NCBI RefSeq assembly: GCF_030539665.1
Contig: NZ_JAUNXR010000007.1
Coordinates: forward strand, 1-33,463
From: Methanobrevibacter sp.
GTDB lineage: Archaea; Methanobacteriota; Methanobacteria; Methanobacteriales; Methanobacteriaceae
Direction of reading: 5' to 3'
DNA length: 33,463 bases
Notes under the pieces: model-generated
The model's database searches: none
What the model saw: the letters and a program-made list of their open reading frames with translations, nothing else
Told to the model about the DNA's origin: nothing
Shown: piece after piece, positions 11,116 to 27,114 of the stretch
Layout: every line of letters begins with the position of its first letter
Numbering within the stretch: the stretch's first letter is position 1
Position numbers and translations under genes: made by a program

Positions 11116-11493
11116 TTAATTTATGGCTTCCAAATCCCCGCATTCAAAGACATAGTGGTCATCGCTGGGATTGACAATAAGGCCTGAAAAGTCACAGTCA
11201 TCAAAATAGATTGACATTATGTCCCTGCCGGTTGCGATATCCGCATCCAAGGAATCATCACCGATTGAATCCATACCTGCGCATAAGGACTTATAATCAC
11301 TGAAAACAGGTACGAAGAAATCGCCTTCATTTTCCTGAGAAATCAGAACCATAAGTTCACCGTTGTCTGTCAAAATGATGTAAAGTTCGTTTTCAAAGAT
11401 TTCATTATTAAGCTCATTTACCAATTCCTCAGAATCGTCAAATTCCAGTTGATTCAATAGATTTCCAATATTGCTCTCTTTAATGCTATTCAT
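11116..11493 (-). CDS. SseB-like N-terminal domain protein (paralog 1)
   Basis: 125 residues from ATG 11493, which has a perfect GGTGAT site four bases upstream; ATG 11505 is less likely. Very acidic. The core shows the SseB signature seen in five other genes here: FFVPVFSDYKSL, then a helical spacer, then FSGLIVNPSDDHYVF. SseB domains are soluble alpha/beta folds of unsettled role (bacterial SseB affects serine sensitivity). No signal peptide, no cysteine cluster. It stands alone, codirectional with the zinc-ribbon gene 70 bases on. Function in methanogens is unknown. Confidence 0.7.
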   Translation of the reverse strand: MNSIKESNIGNLLNQLEFDDSEELVNELNNEIFENELYIILTDNGELMVLISQENEGDFFVPVFSDYKSLCAGMDSIGDDSLDADIATGRDIMSIYFDDCDFSGLIVNPSDDHYVFECGDLEAIN

Positions 11494-11670
11494 ATCTATC
11501 ACCATTTTAATAATGAAGCATTTTTATTTATAAAGCTAACTAAATGTACTATAGGAACAATTGAAAAAATAGAATCAATATAAACTGTATAGAAATTAAT
11601 TGAAATAAGAATATAAAAATAAAATAAGTTGTGAAAATATATAAATAAAATGAACAATAAACCAAATAGC

Positions 11671-11720: not shown

Positions 11721-11754
11721 TAAAAAAGTAGAAAAATGAATATTTTTTCTACTT
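11721..11754 (-). terminator. Terminator of the nadV gene
   Basis: On the minus strand AAGTAGAAAAA pairs perfectly (11 bp) with TTTTTCTACTT around a 7-base loop and runs into TTTTAATTAA. The stem starts within the stop codon. Confidence 0.7.
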
Positions 11755-13161
11755 AATAACTAACATAGCTTTCTGTTCTTTTTCTGATGTCTTCAAAGGT
11801 ATCTTCAATTAGAAGCTCTCCGTTTCTAAAGACTTCCCTTAGGTAGTCGTCACCACAAGCGTCAATAGGCACTGTCCTGAAAACATTTCCATTGCTGACC
11901 AGTTTGAATCTTCCAGTCTTTGACTTTTTGCTGGTGTCCAACGGGTTCTTGAAAATGTCCACCCATTGGCCGTTCCTTTCTTGAGCTGAACACTTGAATG
12001 CATTTCTTTGTGTGTCACGTGTTGTGGAAGTGTGAAGTCCGCCGCCCATACCAAAGACTATGTTTTCAGCTGCCCATCCGTTGGTTTTAAGGGAGAAAAG
12101 AATGTCACGAATCTTGTGATAGTCAAGTCCGTCTCCCCAGAGAACACGATGTTGTCCTTGAACACCTTATACCCTTCACCTGTTTTTACAGTGTTGAATC
12201 CCTTTTCCAGAATGTTGAAGCAGTCAAGGGTTGTTGAGACAGGCTCTCCGCTGTCAGGCCTGAATACTATCTTGTTGATTGGATTTTTAGCTAAAAAGTC
12301 CTTGATGGCTCCGTTCAGTTTGCCGTCAGGCATACTTGACTGTGTAAGGAAGTTCCTGTAGTCATAGCTATCGATAACCATTGAAAGTATGCCGTCCCTT
12401 GCATGGTCGATTACATTAATGACCTGGTCGAATTCTCCTTTCTGGCCCTGTGAAGTCATTACGCTGTGTTCTGTTGCCTGAACTGAAAATCCATAAACGT
12501 TGGAGTCGTTGTAGTAATTGTCAGGGATTGAAAGTCCAGGAATGGTGTCGGTTCCCTTGAAGCTTAGCAAATGGGCTGCACCACATAGCATGGAAGCGTC
12601 TACACTTGGAGATCCCCTGAATCCGAAGTCATGGAGCATGAATTCAAGGTTGGTCTTGTCAGAGCCTGTAACGTCAAGGTAAAAATTGCATAGCTTTTTG
12701 ACCTCTGCAGAAAGTGTAGCCACTGTTGAGGGATACCATACCTGAAGAAGCAATGATTCAAGATAGTTTGTAAGCCAGAAACATCTCTTGTCGGTGTTTT
12801 CGACTGTCATGAGAACGTTTCCAACATTTACAGGTGTTCCTTCAGCCACTGCCCTGATTGAAATCGGAAGTCTGCCATCCAGATTTTCTGCAATGTATGC
12901 CCAGTCGTCGTAGTTGAAGATTCCTTCCCCAATATGTGTCTCTATTAGCCTGTTTGCCTCATCTACCTTTTCCATAGTTACAACGTTTCCTTCAAGATAC
13001 TTCTTGATTGTGTACTGAAGTCCGAAAAAGATTGTCTTGTTGAACTCAGAACCTATCCTGCTTTCCAGATATGAGTATACCTTCTCAGTATTTTCAGGAT
13101 AGAAATAGTGGTGTGTTACCTTGTAACTGTCGGTAAGTAGACAGATATTATTTTCAATCAT
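11753..13161 (-). pseudogene. nadV: Nicotinamide phosphoribosyltransferase, single frameshift
   Basis: Makes nicotinamide mononucleotide from nicotinamide and PRPP (NAD salvage). From ATG 13161 the frame is open through Asp205 (KGTDT), catalytic His232 (QATEHS) and Arg301/Asp303 (RPDSGEP), then leaves frame at 12140-12143 and stops at 12058. The correct frame resumes at once: dropping one TC from TTCTCTGG restores FWGDGLDYHKI, and reading then continues through GWAAENIVFGMGGGL, AFKCSA and the C-terminus to 11753. Reconstructed length is about 468 residues, normal for the family. A TATA box (13183-13192) about 27 bases before the ATG suggests a leaderless mRNA. Everything but one dinucleotide is intact, so the lesion is recent, an assembly error, or a recoding or phase-variable site. 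Confidence 0.9.
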
Positions 13162-13182
13162 ATACAATGATATTGTTATTAA

Positions 13183-13192: not shown

Positions 13193-13347
13193 CATTATGA
13201 TGAAAAATGTTTTGCATTAAATAAAATCATTTAATTTAGATAAAAAATGAACAGTTTATAAAAAATATTTTGAAAACTGGATATTCATACAATAAACATA
13301 AACTATATTTAAAATAAGAATATTAAATTTAAAACAAGGTGAGATTT

Positions 13348-13806
13348 ATGTCAAAAGTAGAAAACACAGAACTATTGAAATTGATTGACGAGTTTATAGA
13401 AATAGATGAACAGGAAAACAAGGACATGGACAAGCTAGCGGAAATCGGACACCAACTAGACCACACAGTTCTTGAATGCGAACTTATAGCTATCGTAAAC
13501 AATGAAGACAGAGAATTCAACGAAATCCTAAGACTGATAGTAGAAGACGAAAACGACAGCTACTTCATACCAGCATACACAGATGTCGAGGAAGCCAAAA
13601 AGGGAATCGAGGCTTTAGGCCTTAATGAAGACCAATGGACCTACGAGTTCGAAGCAATGACCGGACTTGACATACTGGACATTGGAATAGAAGACGAGAA
13701 ATTCGTAGGAATAGTAATCAACCCATATGACACCGACTTCATATTCCCAAAGGAAGACATAATAAATGCTGCAATATGCAATCAAGAGCACGAGAGTTGT
13801 GATTAA
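13348..13806 (+). CDS. SseB-like protein (paralog 2)
   Basis: 152 residues from ATG 13348, preceded by AAGGTGA five bases upstream; a GTG at 13339 lies inside that site and is rejected. The N-terminal 50 residues are a charged helix (EFIEIDEQENKDMDKLAEI). The core has YFIPAYTDVEEAKKG and FVGIVINPYDTDFIFP, the same two anchors as the other SseB-like proteins here. A TATA-like CTATATTTAAA is at 13303-13313. Stop and next start overlap as TAATG, so it is coupled to paralog 3. Unknown function. Confidence 0.72.
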   Translation: MSKVENTELLKLIDEFIEIDEQENKDMDKLAEIGHQLDHTVLECELIAIVNNEDREFNEILRLIVEDENDSYFIPAYTDVEEAKKGIEALGLNEDQWTYEFEAMTGLDILDIGIEDEKFVGIVINPYDTDFIFPKEDIINAAICNQEHESCD

Positions 13807-14246
13807 TGAAGCTGGAAGACTATGAGACATACAAGAAGGACAAGACAAAGTCTTCAAAAAGTAGACTGAAGGATCTTATAGACACATATGCGGAAATCAA
13901 TAGAAAGTTAAACAACGAATCCTCAATCGAACTGAATGTCTTTAAAAACAACATCCGTGAAACATACCAGAAGGAAGTCTATTTCACACTAATCGACGAG
14001 ATAGAAAAGCCTGTAAGATTCAATGTTGATGAGAAGTCAAAGGAATACTTCATTCCAATATTCACCGACATTGATGAATATGGGGAAGGTTCAAGAAAGA
14101 TATCCAAGCTCTTTCTAGACAAGCTTGACTTGAAGATGCTGACTCCTGAAGACATCAGAAAAATAGCAAGTGAAGACGAGAACTTCCAGGGAGTAATCAT
14201 AAATCCCCACAGTCAAAACTTTTCAGTTGATTTGAAAAACATTTAG
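13806..14246 (+). CDS. SseB-like protein (paralog 3)
   Basis: 146 residues. N-terminal charged helix (YETYKKDKTKSSKSR), then the SseB-like core: YFTLIDE, KEYFIPIFTDIDEYGEG, and NFQGVIINPHSQNFSV. Translationally coupled to paralog 2 by a TAATG overlap, which suggests the two act together or form a heteromer. Its stop interlocks with that of the convergent zinc-ribbon/TM gene (TTAG, four bases), so no terminator lies between them. Confidence 0.72.
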   Translation: MKLEDYETYKKDKTKSSKSRLKDLIDTYAEINRKLNNESSIELNVFKNNIRETYQKEVYFTLIDEIEKPVRFNVDEKSKEYFIPIFTDIDEYGEGSRKISKLFLDKLDLKMLTPEDIRKIASEDENFQGVIINPHSQNFSVDLKNI

Positions 14247-15141: not shown

Positions 15142-15588
15142 ATGGAGTATAATGATAGTAACTTGAAGGATGAAATAATAAAAAACAGCAAACTGAAGAC
15201 ATGCATAAACAAGTATGATGAACTGCTTGAAACCTACGGCTCAGAACTCAACAACATAAAGAACAACATAAACGAAGCCCTATTCAACGAATACCTGATA
15301 ACAATAAAATCCAGAATAAACAAGCAGACCAGCATAGTCAGAATAGTGCAGAAAGACAACAGAAATAGCTATTTCATCCCAATATTTACAGATGAATTCG
15401 AATACATAAAAGGAATAGAAACATTTGAATTTGAAGAGGAGATAATCGACGAACCATACATCACAACAATACATGAATTCATAGACATTGCAAAAAACGA
15501 CCCGAACCTTAAAGGACTCATAGTAAACCCCCACAACCAGGATTTCGCAATAGACATGGACTCAGTTCTTGAATATGATGAGAAATAA
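15142..15588 (+). CDS. SseB-like protein (paralog 4)
   Basis: 148 residues, charged helical N-terminus, then ITIKSRINK, NSYFIPIFTDEFEYIKG and NLKGLIVNPHNQDFAID. Most similar by eye to paralog 3. GTGAT lies just upstream of the ATG. Forty bases before paralog 5 in the same direction, probably one transcript. Confidence 0.72.
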   Translation: MEYNDSNLKDEIIKNSKLKTCINKYDELLETYGSELNNIKNNINEALFNEYLITIKSRINKQTSIVRIVQKDNRNSYFIPIFTDEFEYIKGIETFEFEEEIIDEPYITTIHEFIDIAKNDPNLKGLIVNPHNQDFAIDMDSVLEYDEK

Positions 15589-15628: not shown

Positions 15629-15949
15629 ATGGAAATAAACAATGAAGAATTTAAAGAAATACAGTTATTTTGTCCAACATATCCAATAGGAGAGGATATG
15701 AACTTTGTAGCCTTCGGAGATGAAAACGATTTTAAAATCCCAGTATTTACAAACCATGAAAGCTATAAGGAAGGATACAAATACCTAAAACTAGATGAAC
15801 AGGAACAGGAATACAACCTGTACACAACCAAAATGAACTTCTTTATCCAGCTAGCTGCAAACGATCCTGGATTTACCGGACTGATTGTAAACCTTCCGGA
15901 AGACAAGATGATTCTCGATAAAGAGAAACTTTTGAGTTTTATAGACTAA
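15629..15949 (+). CDS. SseB-like protein (paralog 5, short)
   Basis: 106 residues; lacks the charged N-terminal helix of the other paralogs and begins directly with the core: FKIPVFTNHESYKEG, then FTGLIVNLPEDKMIL. The usual NP is NL. GTGAT precedes the ATG. It ends before a hairpin shared with the convergent helicase gene. Confidence 0.68.
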   Translation: MEINNEEFKEIQLFCPTYPIGEDMNFVAFGDENDFKIPVFTNHESYKEGYKYLKLDEQEQEYNLYTTKMNFFIQLAANDPGFTGLIVNLPEDKMILDKEKLLSFID

Positions 15950-15990
15950 AAAAAGGTTTTTTAAATAGCTAGCCTGAAAAACTAGCTATT
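15950..15990. terminator. Bidirectional hairpin between SseB-like and helicase genes
   Basis: AATAGCTAG (15964-15972) pairs with CTAGCTATT (15982-15990), nine perfect base pairs. On the minus strand the stem includes the helicase stop codon and leads to TTTAAAAAACCTTTTTTT. On the plus strand it follows the SseB-like stop by 15 bases, with a weaker T content. Confidence 0.55.
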
Positions 15991-18900
15991 GCAAATAAAC
16001 TTGAAATCACAGTCGTTGCACTTATATGTAACGTTCCTGTCGAACTCCTCGCTTTTTATTTTTGAAACGTTTTCCTTGGTTTTGCTTATGTACTCGGCTA
16101 TTTCATCATCTGAAATGTCCACAACAACCAAGTCCCCAGATTCCACAAAGTAGACTCCTGCCCTTCTGACGTTTTCATACTTGGAATCAAGATTCAATGC
16201 ATAGAGATAAAGTTTTAGCTGGTCCTTATAGTACTCTATTTTTTCCGGATTTTCAAGCATTGTGTTCTTATAGTCAATAATGGTTATTTCACCATCCTTT
16301 TCATAGATCAAGTCAATGCTTCCAATGATGTTGTGGCCCTTTTCAATTATGCTGAAACCGTATTCTGACTCAAGAAGCTTCACGTCACCAATATTATCAT
16401 AGAAGCCATAAATGCTGTCCCTGAACTTTTCAAAGGATTCATTGTCCTTTTGAATGTTTGATGTGCTGTTGAAGATTTCCTCGATTATGGAATCTATTTC
16501 CTCCTTTCCAACATCGGGCTTTTCGATTTTTTTAAGGTTTATCTTGTTGAAGGCATTGTGAATGGCGCTTCCAAGACGTATCCTGTCGTTTTCAGAGACC
16601 TTGAACTTCCAGTCATAGAGAAGATGGTATTTGAACGGACAGTCCTCGTAGGTCTTTAGACTTGTGTAACTTGCATTCAGAACCTCCAAGTCGCTTTTAG
16701 CATAGACTGACTCGCATTTCCTAACGGCATCATAATCCAAGGGAATAATATGGCCATTGGCTGTCAGGTCCTCAAACAATGGATGAACATCACTCAAAAA
16801 TGAGAAGTAGGCCACATCCTGGGCACGTGTAATGGCCACATATAGAATCCTAAGCTCCTCCAGGTCATGATAATACTCATCGGGCTTTTCCAGATTTGCC
16901 TTATACTCCAAACAGTCATTTGGAGTGTAGTATGTGTATCCAGGGAAAATATAATCCTTCTGGGAAGGGTCCTCGAATTTCTTTGGAAACTTATCCAACT
17001 TGATTGACGGGATTATGACAATCGGAAACTCCAGACCCTTGGATTTGTGGATTGTCATTATCTGAACTCCGTCATCAGCGCTTGCAGGATTGGAATCCCA
17101 TTTATCGACATTTGACTGGAGGAATCTGAAGTAACCAACAATATCCGTATTGTCCATGACGTTTTCAAAGTTATAGATTGACTCGCTGATTACTGAGAAA
17201 TCATTTAGGGATTTTGAATTGTTGACTTTGAACAATCCTGTAAGCTCCATAATATCGTAGAATATGTCAAGAACGGTCTTGTCCTCACTGTTTTTATCCA
17301 CAAATTTTATGAGCCCATCAATGTCTTCTAAAAAGTTATCCGCACCTATTTGACTTCTAAGATAATCCAGCTTGTCCACCAAACCCAAATCCACCAGTTC
17401 ATTGTTCTTAAGGGCCAACTCACCTACATAATCAAGCTTGGAATTGCAATATTCCACATCCCCTTCCTTTTTGAACTTTTGTTTCATTCTCTCAAGATTA
17501 TTTGATATAATCATTCCAACGTTTCTGGATACAATGGCTTTAAGGTCTTCAAGCTTACGGAAGAATTCCCTGTCTTCATCATTTTCAATCATTGTCAAAT
17601 CGATTTTTGGAGCTGGAACCTTTTCGAAAAGCTCCTCCAGCATTTCATCGGTTCTGTTTTTCCCGAAAGCGCTTTTGTCATTGAATATTGCTGAGAATTT
17701 TTTGATTGTTGTTTTTTTGCCGACTTCCCTCTTATAGATTTCCTTTATTGTTTCAAGGGCTTTCTCCTCATATTCGTCCTGAATGGTTTTAAGCATCCCG
17801 ACTGTTTCATCGGACAATTCCCATAATGTGGGTTCGAATGTCTCTCCTGTAAATGCCCTTAGGTTAAGCCAGTCCTTCTCCCATTTGGTCAGATGATATG
17901 GCTTGAATGGCTCCGGAAGAACATAATGAAGCAGGGTGATGAAAGACCTTACGTCGTCACTTTCAAAAAGGTTTGAGAAATTCTTGATTTCATATGGAAT
18001 TTCCTCATCCTCAAACAGTTCTGTCAGATTTTTAGGGGTTTGGCCCTTAAGGGATCTAAATAGGATAGCTATGTCGGAATAATTCTCTATCTTGTTGTTC
18101 TCCTTAAGGTTTTTGATGAATTCCACTATATTGTATGCCTCTTCAACGTTATCCTCGCTTACTGTGTAGTAATTGTTGCTGTCAAATTCACGGTTGTAGG
18201 TCATGTTCTTTTGGGAACCTTCCCCACGCCTGTCCTTAATGAACTCCTCAGTAAGGTTGACGACATTTGCAGTAGAGCGGTAATTAACGTCAAGAGATAT
18301 TACATGACCGTTGTAGTTGTTAACCAACTCTTCAAAATAATCAAAGAGCGCTCCCCTAAATCCATAAATGCTCTGGTCAACATCTCCCACAACGGTGAAG
18401 CTGTCTGCAGACTGCAGAAGAATCTCAAAAATATAATACTGTACAGGATTGGTATCCTGAAACTCGTCAATCAGAATGTTCTTGTAGTCTGTATCTGGAT
18501 GCTTTTCCAAAAACTCCAAAGTCTTGATCTGCAGGGTATCGTAATCAACAAGATAGTTCTTATCCAGCAGATTAAGGTATTTCTGATAGGCTTTAGCTAT
18601 CTGGAGATATCTTGAATTGTGCCATGAATCCTTGAACTCCTCATTGTTTACAACTTCCTTGTAGGGAAAACCTTCAAATGAATTCTTTCTAACGAAATCT
18701 ATATATTCCCTGGATACTGGCCTGTTTGAGGAGATATAATTCACCAGCTTATCGCTGTCAACCTTGAAAGTTGAATATTCGCCAAACTTATCAATAACAT
18801 CACTAATGGAACTGTTGGAAATGTAGGATTCGTTTTTAAAACCTAAATAAGGCTTATGCTTCTGTATAAAAAGAGTCTTTTTCTGTGCATAGTCATCGTC

Positions 18901-19248
18901 CAGGATTTCATATGCAAAATTGTCATATTTCTTAAGCAGATCATGACAGAAACCATGGATAGTTGAAATCTGCATCTTGTTGATGGTTTCAACATCAATG
19001 TCTTCAGCAAGACGGCTTTTAAGCTCTTCGGTAGCTTTTCTTGTAAATGTGATTACAAGCAATGATTCTGGAGCTACTTTCTTTTCATTGAGCAGGAACT
19101 TGACCCTTTCCGTAAGCACACGAGTCTTTCCTGAGCCTGGGCCTGCCTCGATTATTAGAGGATCCTTGCCGTCATAGGTTACGGCCTTCTGCTGATTTTC
19201 ATTTAAGCTGAATTTCCTTTCCTGAGTTTCATTTGAAGTTATTGGCAT
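15982..19248 (-). CDS. UvrD/PcrA-type DNA helicase fused to AddB-like Fe-S PD-(D/E)XK nuclease
   Basis: 1088 residues from ATG 19248 (MPITSNETQE), the natural start for a UvrD fold; an in-frame extension to 19392 runs into the duplicated flank and is rejected. Helicase motifs in order: Walker A AGPGSGKT (35-42), DEFQDTNP, VGDVDQSIYGFRGA, TIHKSKGLEFP, LYVAITRAQD. The C-terminal 250 residues form a RecB-family nuclease: GSAIHNAF, GSIDLIYEKDG...IIDYKN, QLKLYLYAL. A lone Cys (EDCPFKY) plus CNDCDFKFIC (C-x2-C-x5-C) match the AddB/Cas4 4Fe-4S pattern. A one-chain AddA-like machine for double-strand-break end resection or foreign DNA degradation is likely. It stands alone; a TATA-like AATATTATA lies about 25 bases upstream. 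Confidence 0.88.
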   Translation of the reverse strand: MPITSNETQERKFSLNENQQKAVTYDGKDPLIIEAGPGSGKTRVLTERVKFLLNEKKVAPESLLVITFTRKATEELKSRLAEDIDVETINKMQISTIHGFCHDLLKKYDNFAYEILDDDYAQKKTLFIQKHKPYLGFKNESYISNSSISDVIDKFGEYSTFKVDSDKLVNYISSNRPVSREYIDFVRKNSFEGFPYKEVVNNEEFKDSWHNSRYLQIAKAYQKYLNLLDKNYLVDYDTLQIKTLEFLEKHPDTDYKNILIDEFQDTNPVQYYIFEILLQSADSFTVVGDVDQSIYGFRGALFDYFEELVNNYNGHVISLDVNYRSTANVVNLTEEFIKDRRGEGSQKNMTYNREFDSNNYYTVSEDNVEEAYNIVEFIKNLKENNKIENYSDIAILFRSLKGQTPKNLTELFEDEEIPYEIKNFSNLFESDDVRSFITLLHYVLPEPFKPYHLTKWEKDWLNLRAFTGETFEPTLWELSDETVGMLKTIQDEYEEKALETIKEIYKREVGKKTTIKKFSAIFNDKSAFGKNRTDEMLEELFEKVPAPKIDLTMIENDEDREFFRKLEDLKAIVSRNVGMIISNNLERMKQKFKKEGDVEYCNSKLDYVGELALKNNELVDLGLVDKLDYLRSQIGADNFLEDIDGLIKFVDKNSEDKTVLDIFYDIMELTGLFKVNNSKSLNDFSVISESIYNFENVMDNTDIVGYFRFLQSNVDKWDSNPASADDGVQIMTIHKSKGLEFPIVIIPSIKLDKFPKKFEDPSQKDYIFPGYTYYTPNDCLEYKANLEKPDEYYHDLEELRILYVAITRAQDVAYFSFLSDVHPLFEDLTANGHIIPLDYDAVRKCESVYAKSDLEVLNASYTSLKTYEDCPFKYHLLYDWKFKVSENDRIRLGSAIHNAFNKINLKKIEKPDVGKEEIDSIIEEIFNSTSNIQKDNESFEKFRDSIYGFYDNIGDVKLLESEYGFSIIEKGHNIIGSIDLIYEKDGEITIIDYKNTMLENPEKIEYYKDQLKLYLYALNLDSKYENVRRAGVYFVESGDLVVVDISDDEIAEYISKTKENVSKIKSEEFDRNVTYKCNDCDFKFICNS

Positions 19249-19641
19249 GGTAAAAGTTATGTCTAAACTATAATATTTATGTTGCCATATAATAGGAAAA
19301 AATAGTTTATAGTTCCTTAGCAAATTTTTATAACTAATTAAGACCATCAGGTTAGCTGGAAGAAAAAATATAAAATAACTGAAACATGACAAAATAGAGT
19401 AAAAAAATCATTTAAGGTAAATGAAAACATTATTGATGCGAAAACAAAAAAAATCTTGATACTCTCCTAAAAATATGCTAGAACCCTTGAAAATGCTAAC
19501 TAAGTGATTAGGACCACATCAAGAACTATAAAACTTTCTCCAGATTGTAAAAAAAAGAAAAATATGGGGAAAAATGTTTTATGAAACTCAAAATTGAATT
19601 ATTATTGATTTCCCAAAAAAATATGATGAAAATTGATAGAT
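19249..19641. other. Gap between helicase and HEPN partner gene; 3' flank of right duplicated copy
   Basis: No gene. It holds the helicase promoter at its left edge (minus strand AATATTATAG near 19270). From about 19305 it matches 828-1105, so the duplication endpoint lies only about 60 bases from the helicase start. Confidence 0.6.
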
Positions 19642-19992
19642 TTAAAAATGCCTTAAGCAGAAATTTGCCATATAAAATGAAGGCAGAATGTTATTCTCTT
19701 TTGCAAAACCCTCCATTTTATGATAAACCTCATACCAAAGATCTTGTCTAACCCTATAATCAAAATCAGGAATTTTTATAACAAACCATGGAAGATATGC
19801 ACCATCCCAGAAAGGCTCATATTCCACATGCAGACCTCCGAATTCGTGAATGATTCCTTCTAAAAAGTTTTTAAGTTGAGCAACTCCTTCTTTTATGTAA
19901 ATTTTCCACTCATCAAGTAGACTTTCAACATTGAACTGATTGAATTTTGTGTAATCCTCCAACGGATTCTCCAGTTTCCTAATTTTCTCCAT
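19642..19992 (-). CDS. Unknown 116-aa partner of HEPN-like gene, right copy
   Basis: Intact paralog of the 1106-1456 gene. Two adjacent ATG codons occur (19995 and 19992); alignment with the left copy and the seven-base distance from GGAGG favour 19992, giving 116 residues and a one-base overlap with the HEPN stop (TGATG). The first 78 and last 21 residues are almost the same as in the left copy, but the stretch RVRQDLWYEVYHKMEG (about 80-96) is different. Family not recognised. Coupled to the intact HEPN-like gene; likely antitoxin or co-factor by position only. Confidence 0.72.
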   Translation of the reverse strand: MEKIRKLENPLEDYTKFNQFNVESLLDEWKIYIKEGVAQLKNFLEGIIHEFGGLHVEYEPFWDGAYLPWFVIKIPDFDYRVRQDLWYEVYHKMEGFAKENNILPSFYMANFCLRHF

Positions 19993-20450
19993 CATATTTC
20001 CTCCCTGAATTTTAAATTTTCAAATATCTTCATTCCCTTTGAAATAACTTCATTAACGTCATTTAATGTTATGTTTCCACATAAATTGTAGTCTGCATCC
20101 TTTCTCATTACAAACATATTCTTTAAAATGGATGATAACTCGCGAAACAATAAACTGCGATTTGGTGGAACCATCTTTGCAACGTCCCATAATCCTTCAT
20201 AAACTATTCTATGCTCGCTCTTATTTTTCTTGTTAATCATCCTTCTTGAATCAATGTCAAAGACCCTTGTTTTAATACCATATTTTACATCTAGCCACTC
20301 CTTGGCATGATTGAAGCAGGCATAATAAATCCTGTTAATGACAGTTCTATAAATGCACTGAAAACTTATTTCATCAACTCTCAAATCTCCAGCATCCAAC
20401 ATAACCTCTCCTAAAAAGAAGAACTGATTAAAATCAAAATAAGATTTCAT
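19992..20450 (-). CDS. HEPN-like protein, right copy (intact)
   Basis: 152 residues, all helical in appearance. The motif YRTVINRIYYACFNHAKEWL matches the 'R..YYA.F..A' helix typical of HEPN proteins, and MRKDADYNL resembles the R..ADY end of the fourth helix. The strict R-x4-6-H ribonuclease motif is not obvious; the closest pair is Arg and His in NRIYYACFNH, seven apart. HEPN proteins are often RNase toxins paired with a small partner. The gene is coupled to the 116-residue partner. Compared with the frameshifted left copy it differs mainly in a patch after MVPP (NRSLLFRELSSI). Fold call is moderate; toxin role is inference. Confidence 0.65.
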   Translation of the reverse strand: MKSYFDFNQFFFLGEVMLDAGDLRVDEISFQCIYRTVINRIYYACFNHAKEWLDVKYGIKTRVFDIDSRRMINKKNKSEHRIVYEGLWDVAKMVPPNRSLLFRELSSILKNMFVMRKDADYNLCGNITLNDVNEVISKGMKIFENLKFREEI

Positions 20451-20904: not shown

Positions 20905-21168
20905 TCAATAGCTGGATTCTATTATGAAATCCATCAATGTCTTGATATCCTCCGGAACGTTGCGCTCCTCTACATCGAATCCTACCTTATTCCTTTGATT
21001 AAGGTATTCTTGAGCAGCAGTTCTGCTCATGAATTTAATGTCTTCAAAATTCATGACAACCTTTTCTGCATTTCCTTTTTCAAGGGCGTTAAATAAATCT
21101 TCAATCTTGTTTCTTGATCCCAAATCCTCATTAATTTCCTTTTGCAATAATATTTCCTTTACTTCCAT
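20905..21168 (-). CDS. STAS-like protein (DUF4325-type)
   Basis: 87 residues, soluble. The sequence KVVMNFEDIKFMSRTAAQEYL followed by an acidic turn and NVPEDIKTLMDFI fits a short STAS-like fold of the DUF4325 kind, in which a strand ends in 'DF..i.f.s...a.ef'. A strong GGGGTGAT site precedes the ATG by three to four bases. It follows the HIRAN gene by 40 bases on the same strand, so an operon with HIRAN and J-domain genes is likely. STAS-like proteins usually act as regulatory or binding modules; role unknown here. Confidence 0.6.
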   Translation of the reverse strand: MEVKEILLQKEINEDLGSRNKIEDLFNALEKGNAEKVVMNFEDIKFMSRTAAQEYLNQRNKVGFDVEERNVPEDIKTLMDFIIESSY

Positions 21169-21208
21169 TATATCACCCCATTTTTAAAACAAACCTTCAA
21201 AAAAGACA

Positions 21209-21598
21209 TTATTCCTTGAGAAAGATGTCCACCATGATGTCAACGCTGTCATAGTCACCATGCCCGATTGTGTTTATCCTGCCGTAGAGCATCTTTCCAC
21301 TGTCCATGAGATTTGACAGTATTGTGTTGTGCTTTCTTGGAACGTAGCCTATTTTTTTGCCCTTATGAAGCATCATAATAGCTTTTTTGTCGTGCTCGTT
21401 GTTGGCTTCCCTCATGAGGCGCACGTCATTTCCCTCTTCCAGCTCGTCCACTATCGAATCCTCGAATATGTAGTAATAGCTGCCTGCAACATAAACCCTT
21501 ATCAGGAATATGTCCTCAAGAAGGGATGCTATCTTTCCGCTGTTGTGAATCAGCTTGATGGTTGTGGCCATTTCTGAGTCTACCTTCTGTAGGGACAT
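21209..21598 (-). CDS. HIRAN-domain protein
   Basis: 129 residues made almost entirely of one HIRAN domain: RVYVAGSYYY, LEEGNDVRLMREANNEHDKKAI, and KKIGYVPRKHNTILSNLMDSGK. HIRAN domains bind the 3' ends of single-stranded or damaged DNA in HLTF-like proteins and also occur alone in prokaryotes. Its ATG follows immediately on the TAG of the J-domain gene with no gap, so the two are coupled. DNA binding is the expected activity; the biological role is unknown. Confidence 0.82.
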   Translation of the reverse strand: MSLQKVDSEMATTIKLIHNSGKIASLLEDIFLIRVYVAGSYYYIFEDSIVDELEEGNDVRLMREANNEHDKKAIMMLHKGKKIGYVPRKHNTILSNLMDSGKMLYGRINTIGHGDYDSVDIMVDIFLKE

Positions 21599-22357
21599 CT
21601 ATTCACTCTCCAGTTCCATCTCTTCCACACGGGTTTCGTAATATTCGATTTCTTCCTTGTATCTGCTTATGAGGTCCTTCAGGGAGTTTGTGTATTCTTC
21701 AATAGCTGACTCGTCCTCAAGGAGATCTATCTTGTTGTAGGGATATTCTTCCTTGTATTTTTCTATCTTTTCCTTGATTTTGTCTATCCTTTCCTGATAA
21801 TAGCTTTCGTCAAGCTCATCCTGCATTTCGTCGTCGTCTATTATGGAGTATATCATCCTTATGGTTTCGATGTCTCCACTTTTGAATGCGATGGTTGCCT
21901 GATTGAACAGTGTCTTTTCATGGTCTGAAACGTCGTCATTCAAATCTGGATGTAGGGCCATGATTATCCTTCTGAAGTTTGACTTCAGCTCCCTTGTCTC
22001 TTCCGCTGTAAGGAATACTGTTTCCCCTTTGAATGAGTTTTCAAACTCCTTCTGCTGAGCCTTGAGGCTCTCCTCATATTGTTCAAAGAGGATTTCAAGC
22101 TGGAAGTTGATTTCATTCATGTTTACGTCTTCCCCATGGTTCATCTTGGATTGTATCATCTGAACCTTCTTTCTTATCTTGTTTAGCTCTATTTCAAGCC
22201 TGTAGACCTCTATTTCAAGAAAGCCGAAAAGGGAAATGTATTTCTGTTCTATCCTTGGACCTATGTGATTTACCAATTCCTCATATTCAAAAAGAAGCGT
22301 TGACAGCTGGTCCTTAAACTGGGAATTGTCTGTCTTAACCGGAACATTAATTGTCAT
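21599..22357 (-). CDS. J-domain protein with flanking coiled coils
   Basis: About 252 residues from ATG 22357 (GTG 22360 also possible; transcription should start near 22362, so the mRNA is leaderless). Residues 45-110 form a long charged coiled coil. A compact J-domain follows: ELKSNFRRIIMALHPDLNDD with the HPD motif at about 136-138, then a helix FNQATIAFKSGDIETIRMIY. The C-terminal 65 residues are again coiled coil. J-domains recruit and stimulate Hsp70; this is not DnaJ itself, as the Gly/Phe and zinc regions are missing. First gene of the J/HIRAN/STAS-like operon. Confidence 0.8.
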   Translation of the reverse strand: MTINVPVKTDNSQFKDQLSTLLFEYEELVNHIGPRIEQKYISLFGFLEIEVYRLEIELNKIRKKVQMIQSKMNHGEDVNMNEINFQLEILFEQYEESLKAQQKEFENSFKGETVFLTAEETRELKSNFRRIIMALHPDLNDDVSDHEKTLFNQATIAFKSGDIETIRMIYSIIDDDEMQDELDESYYQERIDKIKEKIEKYKEEYPYNKIDLLEDESAIEEYTNSLKDLISRYKEEIEYYETRVEEMELESE

Positions 22358-22384
22358 CACCTAATATAATATTCACGTTCAAGG

Positions 22385-22393
22385 TATATAAAA
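22385..22393 (-). promoter_or_regulatory. TATA box of the J-domain operon
   Basis: Minus strand TTTTATATA, centred about 27 bases before the expected start at about 22362. Confidence 0.55.
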
Positions 22394-22472
22394 TGTGTGT
22401 AAACAATTATGAGAAACTATTTTTTAACAAACAAACATATTATTAGATAACTAACTAATAACTAGGTGTTTT

Positions 22473-26721: not shown

Positions 26722-27114
26722 ATGGAAATAGAAGACATAAAAAATCCGAACATGAAAAGTCAGATTCAGATGGCATACCTCCATGGGGAAAACAACAACC
26801 AGGAAGCAATAGAAAAGGTAAACAAAACCATAATTGAACTTATAGAAACCTCACCACTGATAACAGTAACCGAAAATGATGAACATGTAAAGATACCCTA
26901 CGGAAACGATGGAGAATTCATAATACCGATCTTTACAGACAAGCAAGAACTGGAAAAAGGACTGGAATACTTTAGATTAAATGAAATGTCTGAAAACAAG
27001 GTTCCGAAAATAGTTGAAATCGACTACTTTAAAAAAATAAGGGATAATCCTAATTTCTTAGGACTATTAATAAATATTGCAACAGTTAGCTATATAATAA
27101 GCCTAAACTATTAA
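26722..27114 (+). CDS. SseB-like protein (paralog 6, diverged C-terminus)
   Basis: 130 residues. The core EFIIPIFTDKQELEKG and NFLGLLINIATVSYI match the two SseB-like anchors, but the NP of the second is NI. TTTTTATAG (26690-26698) is about 28 bases before the ATG, which suits a leaderless mRNA. Lies 10 kb from the other five, and its stop interlocks with that of the convergent Mrp gene (TTAA, four bases). Confidence 0.65.
   Translation: MEIEDIKNPNMKSQIQMAYLHGENNNQEAIEKVNKTIIELIETSPLITVTENDEHVKIPYGNDGEFIIPIFTDKQELEKGLEYFRLNEMSENKVPKIVEIDYFKKIRDNPNFLGLLINIATVSYIISLNY

Follow-up and report, generated by a model that had tools for sequence, protein, structure and literature searches.

On the minus strand of a 33,463-nucleotide stretch of Methanobrevibacter sp. 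DNA (hereafter, the window), three genes encoding a J-like coiled-coil protein, a HIRAN protein and a small STAS-like protein follow one another, which raises the question of whether they work as a unit and, if so, what such a unit might do. The J-like gene (21599..22357, 252 aa) runs from an ATG at 22357 to a TAG at 21599-21601 and carries the codons of its HPD motif at 21944-21952 (residues 136-138). No base separates its stop codon from the start codon (21598-21596) of the HIRAN gene (21209..21598, 129 aa), whose own stop lies at 21209. After a gap of 40 bases, with GGGGTGAT ahead of its ATG, comes the DUF4325 STAS-like gene (20905..21168, 87 aa), which adjoins HIRAN and which we judge to lie outside the module. 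An archaeal TATA box, TTTATATA, is located at 22392-22385, also on the minus strand and 28 bases before the J ATG; it is the sole such box within 20905-22400, with none between the three genes, and 14 TATA-type boxes are observed across the window, against 3.6 expected. The 28-base spacing suggests that the leader of the J transcript may be very short or absent, and co-transcription of all three genes is plausible. In these respects, the coordinates agree with a first-pass annotation of the locus, which had described the abutting J and HIRAN genes, a STAS-like gene 40 bases on with its own SD sequence, and one TATA box ahead of all three.

A gene pair and its neighbor

The association of J and HIRAN recurs far beyond the window. 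A pattern scan of 84,980 species genomes (genome_contigs) yielded 80 J loci, drawn from Bacillota, Bacteroidota, Fusobacteriota, Spirochaetota, Synergistota, Chloroflexota, Verrucomicrobiota, Armatimonadota, Actinomycetota, Chlorobiota and, in one genome, Thermoplasmata. An ORF search with unfiltered overlaps placed HIRAN downstream of J and on the same strand in 77 of the 80, nearly always adjacent (one gene is inserted in 3/77) and with gaps mostly of -26 to +45 bases; the three loci without a HIRAN call comprise one contig end (L145) and two from which HIRAN is absent (L191, L211). A profile search made without the HPD pattern in 200 genomes of one bacterial family recovered seven J loci, with HIRAN in 7/7, while among the other Methanobacteriaceae J loci fetched, HIRAN stands directly behind J in 24/29, one of the five HIRAN-less loci being truncated by a contig end. 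The two genes lie end to end or share a few bases, as is typical of coupled translation, and the pairwise distances of the two proteins are correlated (r = 0.83 for 79 pairs; the best of 2000 permutations gave 0.23). The proposal that these genes belong together is upheld by these counts and this correlation, and J and HIRAN almost certainly constitute a functional unit.

J-HIRAN is, then, a co-inherited two-gene module of known domains, in a combination for which we found no description. The first-pass annotation knew of no described system with the trio, and a literature search that did not extend to the founding HIRAN paper (Iyer 2006) likewise found no published account of the pair, its matches for HIRAN with DnaJ or J domain being unrelated to it. 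The loci in many bacterial phyla rule out an archaeal peculiarity. A candidate natural fusion of the two genes (a Rosetta stone) in L210 was rejected, as it consists of overlapping frames and an ambiguous base.

The window STAS-like protein has, taken alone, no convincing family match, and 23 of its 26 relatives match PF14213 (DUF4325, “STAS-like”). Searched against about 130 other J-family loci, the STAS-like profile found no member, and across 139 Methanobacteriaceae genomes, J and STAS-like matches share a locus only in the window. The relatives lie on other contigs than J, mostly after a 200-280-aa gene that we call GHKL-like on the strength of one weak HATPase_c match and the look of the genes, and no STAS-like gene accompanies J in the near relatives G037, G042 and G044. 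The window copy thus belongs to the same family as the STAS-like members of DUF4325/GHKL gene pairs but has no GHKL neighbor, the gene directly upstream of it being HIRAN. Hence, despite the common strand, the 40-base gap and the single TATA box, the trio as a unit is, as far as conservation goes, rejected by the absence of the third gene from all other J loci examined, and its proposed role as the regulator of a three-gene operon, given where its relatives reside, is left with next to no probability. The expectation that the genes would be conserved together held for J and HIRAN and failed for the three; the STAS-like gene very probably lies outside the module, and its place behind HIRAN is that of a chance neighbor. 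As an observation in its own right, many Methanobacteriaceae have a GHKL-like gene directly followed by a DUF4325 STAS-like gene (L033-L061), and this archaeal pair looks like an anti-sigma/antagonist switch.

Other genes offered no third conserved partner: a gene of 266 aa that matches no known family lies between J and HIRAN in L165, L166 and L181, and a family of 206-211 aa follows HIRAN in five Bacillota. Elsewhere in the window, a cassette of two genes (about 117 aa and 150 aa), neither with a Pfam family above cut-off, occurs twice on the minus strand, 18 kb apart (1106-1704 and 19642-20450). Six paralogous small proteins (11116-11505, 13339-13806, 13806-14246, 15142-15588, 15629-15949 and 26722-27114) represent a local expansion, and multiple members of the same family also lie close to J in L083 and L085. 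A nicotinamide phosphoribosyltransferase-like gene (11753-13167, minus strand) seems, by eye, to have been broken by a frameshift, so that it occupies two ORFs that differ in frame. A UvrD/PcrA-like helicase of up to 1136 aa is encoded at 15982-19392 (minus strand), and a relative (L087:9900-11677) lies a few genes from J-HIRAN.

The J-like and HIRAN proteins

The window J protein matches Pfam DnaJ at E 0.0014, weaker than Pfam's own cut-off. At the level of the family, profile comparisons make the relation to J domains clear: 63 of 65 members match DnaJ at E <= 0.01 (best 3.3e-8), the family profile finds solved DnaJ J-domains at 5e-7, and the archaeal J profile picks up canonical DnaJ in many genomes, including that of the window. 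This similarity is confined to helices II-III around HPD. Neither the canonical helix I (YxxLGV) nor helix IV is recognizable, leaving the window protein short of the complete four-helix J fold (I-IV), and its AlphaFold2 model, wholly helical with long coiled-coil helices (mean pLDDT 92.9), has as a whole no significant Foldseek match in the PDB, J domains included. We have therefore filed the protein as J-like. It resembles the class C J-domain (DnaJ/Hsp40) co-chaperones in its HPD loop between a basic helix II and helix III, in a profile that finds DnaJ J-domains, and in the presence of DnaK and DnaJ in the same genome; unlike them, it carries its J part inside a long coiled coil, with helices I and IV unrecognizable and the whole fold unmatched.

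As the pattern used for the genome_contigs and viral scans includes LHPDL, HPD conservation among loci found with it would be circular, and our claim draws only on loci found otherwise. Among these, HPD is kept in 47 of the 49 that are readable, so that the motif, whose loss from most homologs the first-pass annotation had named as telling against its proposal, is conserved. The two exceptions read HPS and belong to archaeal loci of closely related genomes (L083 and L085), in which the HIRAN gene is absent beside J; in L081 and L082, HIRAN has been lost at the J locus and HPD is retained. Ahead of HPD, helix II is basic (positions with K in 60/65 members and R/K in 58/65). Two further J genes deserve mention. 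In genus g9 (L122-L135), a 306-317-aa HPD-bearing J paralogue without HIRAN occurs in fixed synteny in 14 genomes. In the Thermoplasmata genome G167 (L208 / L258), the J gene has one in-frame TAG, which could mark a broken copy, reflect an assembly error, or be read as an amino acid.

These features bear on whether the protein engages Hsp70 at all. HPD could have a purely structural part in a coiled-coil protein that has ceased to cooperate with Hsp70, as might befit a J-likeness limited to helices II-III, with no canonical helix I and an unmatched fold, in a family that also holds two residues beyond the J part, P206 and Y40, invariant. HPD together with a basic helix II is, however, the Hsp70-contacting signature, HPD is invariant in the family down to ~20% identity, and its loss is seen in copies without HIRAN, which makes this explanation quite improbable. 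As for the Hsp70 itself, DnaK is encoded beside DnaJ in the window's genome (G000) and is present in 31 of 32 genomes of the family (the exception is fragmented) and in 20/20 bacterial genomes; being found with or without the pair, it discriminates nothing. No dedicated Hsp70 was seen beside the pair among its neighbors, and the second, divergent Hsp70 that several bacterial genomes encode away from the pair is a lead at most.

The HIRAN protein, whose 129 aa form a single domain, matches Pfam PF08797 at E 8.3e-18 (64.5 bits, against a curated cut-off of 24.7). Its model (pLDDT 84.5) matches the bacterial lp_0118 structure (PDB 3k2y) at a Foldseek E of 5e-8 and human HLTF HIRAN at 2.7e-6, with TM scores of up to 0.89 and about 0.6-0.66, respectively. 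In HLTF, Y72 and Y93 sandwich a DNA dinucleotide and border its cavity (PMC4666394). By our own alignment, on which all residue equivalences depend, these positions carry an aromatic residue or His in 58/58 and 56/58 HIRAN members, and R63, N67 and D70 are invariant, N67/D70 corresponding to HLTF N91/D94. The family thus keeps the pocket positions with which HLTF holds the 3' end of single-stranded DNA, as would suit the DNA-end binder that the first-pass annotation had made of it. Inspection of the alignment revealed no clear counterpart of HLTF F142, reported as important for duplex binding (PMC8262856), and single-stranded ends would therefore be favored. Fold and pocket positions are shared with the HIRAN of the HLTF/Rad5 N-terminus and of lp_0118; unlike the HLTF/Rad5 domain, the window HIRAN stands alone behind a J gene, with no helicase fusion, and its family adds a signature, LMDxGK.

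HIRAN also resembles OB folds such as SmpB (PMC11090510), which the model of the window protein matches weakly. If HIRAN bound protein or RNA, the pair would be an ordinary specialized co-chaperone in protein or RNA quality control, to which both that weak match and the frequent position of the Methanobrevibacter pair ahead of rpl15e (with gaps of 89-319 bases in most) lend some color. Against this stand the conserved 3'-end pocket positions, the far worse score of the SmpB structure for the HIRAN model (0.16, versus 5e-8 for 3k2y), and the restriction of the rpl15e linkage to one lineage, and we consider such a role unlikely.

Prokaryotic HIRAN domains in small gene clusters have precedents. 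The Hip-kinase systems HipI/HipN and HipL carry HIRAN (PMC8262856), and HIRAN-HipA-diDNase clusters have been described (PMC11706625); the pair differs from these in that the partner is a J-like protein, and neither a Hip kinase nor a HipS-like domain appeared among the top families listed for 86 immediate neighbors. The PADLOC candidate PDC-M03B is matched by all 58 HIRAN members, though the matches span only the HIRAN part of a longer model. Separately, another Methanobrevibacter HIRAN family, with several copies per genome, places a C-terminal HIRAN after a TPR region and an apparent zinc ribbon (L253, L254:387-1277 and L256), and in L254, an apparent C5 DNA methyltransferase adjoins the TPR-HIRAN gene.

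Genomic surroundings of the pair

A DNA-damage or anti-invader role is possible for the pair, and its surroundings speak to the latter in both directions. In an anti-invader system, the pair would sense the DNA ends of phages or plasmids and either act via Hsp70 or divert Hsp70 from phage replication. The pair is patchy, being present in 7/200 genomes of one bacterial family, 1/150 Thermoplasmata and roughly a third of Methanobrevibacter, and the J tree, in which deep support is weak, places the archaea in two groups among Bacillota; this placement suggests that J-HIRAN may have spread laterally. The 86 immediate bacterial neighbors include three Fic proteins, one McrC-type protein, one C5 DNA methylase and a Tn916-type integrase, whereas 86 genes drawn at random from 20 of these genomes returned only four generic PADLOC families, in a comparison that is small and not per protein. 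The defense-type neighbors, in a sample too small to define a defense system, hint at variable islands. Two termite Methanobrevibacter loci have, by eye, two DUF262-like genes each, and one of them, L086, also has a McrC-like gene and a transposase.

Several observations weigh on the other side. No neighbor beyond HIRAN is conserved in bacteria, and most Methanobrevibacter pairs lie in housekeeping synteny; in 14 Methanobacteriaceae loci, a DUF3795-like gene and rpl15e (both named by eye) share the region with the pair. Two queries found no J-HIRAN match in phage and plasmid collections, and among 2.9 million viral contigs, the LHPDL-containing J pattern matched just 3. Taken with the limits of the PADLOC comparison, these leave an anti-invader system a possibility that we would not favor. 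Apart from this, five bacterial loci (L163:7242-8738, L158, L175, L178 and L196), two of which are near-identical, have genes for Y-family (impB/mucB/samB) DNA polymerases no more than a few kb from J-HIRAN.

A candidate co-chaperone at DNA ends

A pair that combines an HPD loop with a HIRAN pocket, in genomes where DnaK is near-universal, is best read as a DNA-3'-end-directed Hsp70 co-chaperone, a reading that we put forward tentatively and with somewhat less than even confidence. In this model, the J and HIRAN proteins would bind each other, and HIRAN would anchor the complex at the 3' ends of DNA or at stalled forks. There, the J protein would trigger ATP hydrolysis by DnaK, which could then remodel proteins stuck at the DNA end. 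Several findings count against the co-chaperone. The J similarity covers only helices II-III, and the whole J fold is unmatched. HPD occurs without HIRAN, both in the g9 paralogue of 14 genomes and in L081 and L082. HLTF F142 has no clear counterpart, and the presence of DnaK is uninformative.

More tentatively still, J-HIRAN may be a widespread prokaryotic system that has spread between domains of life and recruits Hsp70 to 3' ends or stalled forks. If so, two small proteins would couple a chaperone machine directly to DNA-end recognition in prokaryotes, in a two-gene unit simple enough for reconstitution. The hosts of the pair also include Streptococcus and Macrococcus, Gram-positive bacteria more readily handled than methanogens, and with it, the poorly understood stand-alone HIRAN proteins of prokaryotes would gain a defined partner to test.
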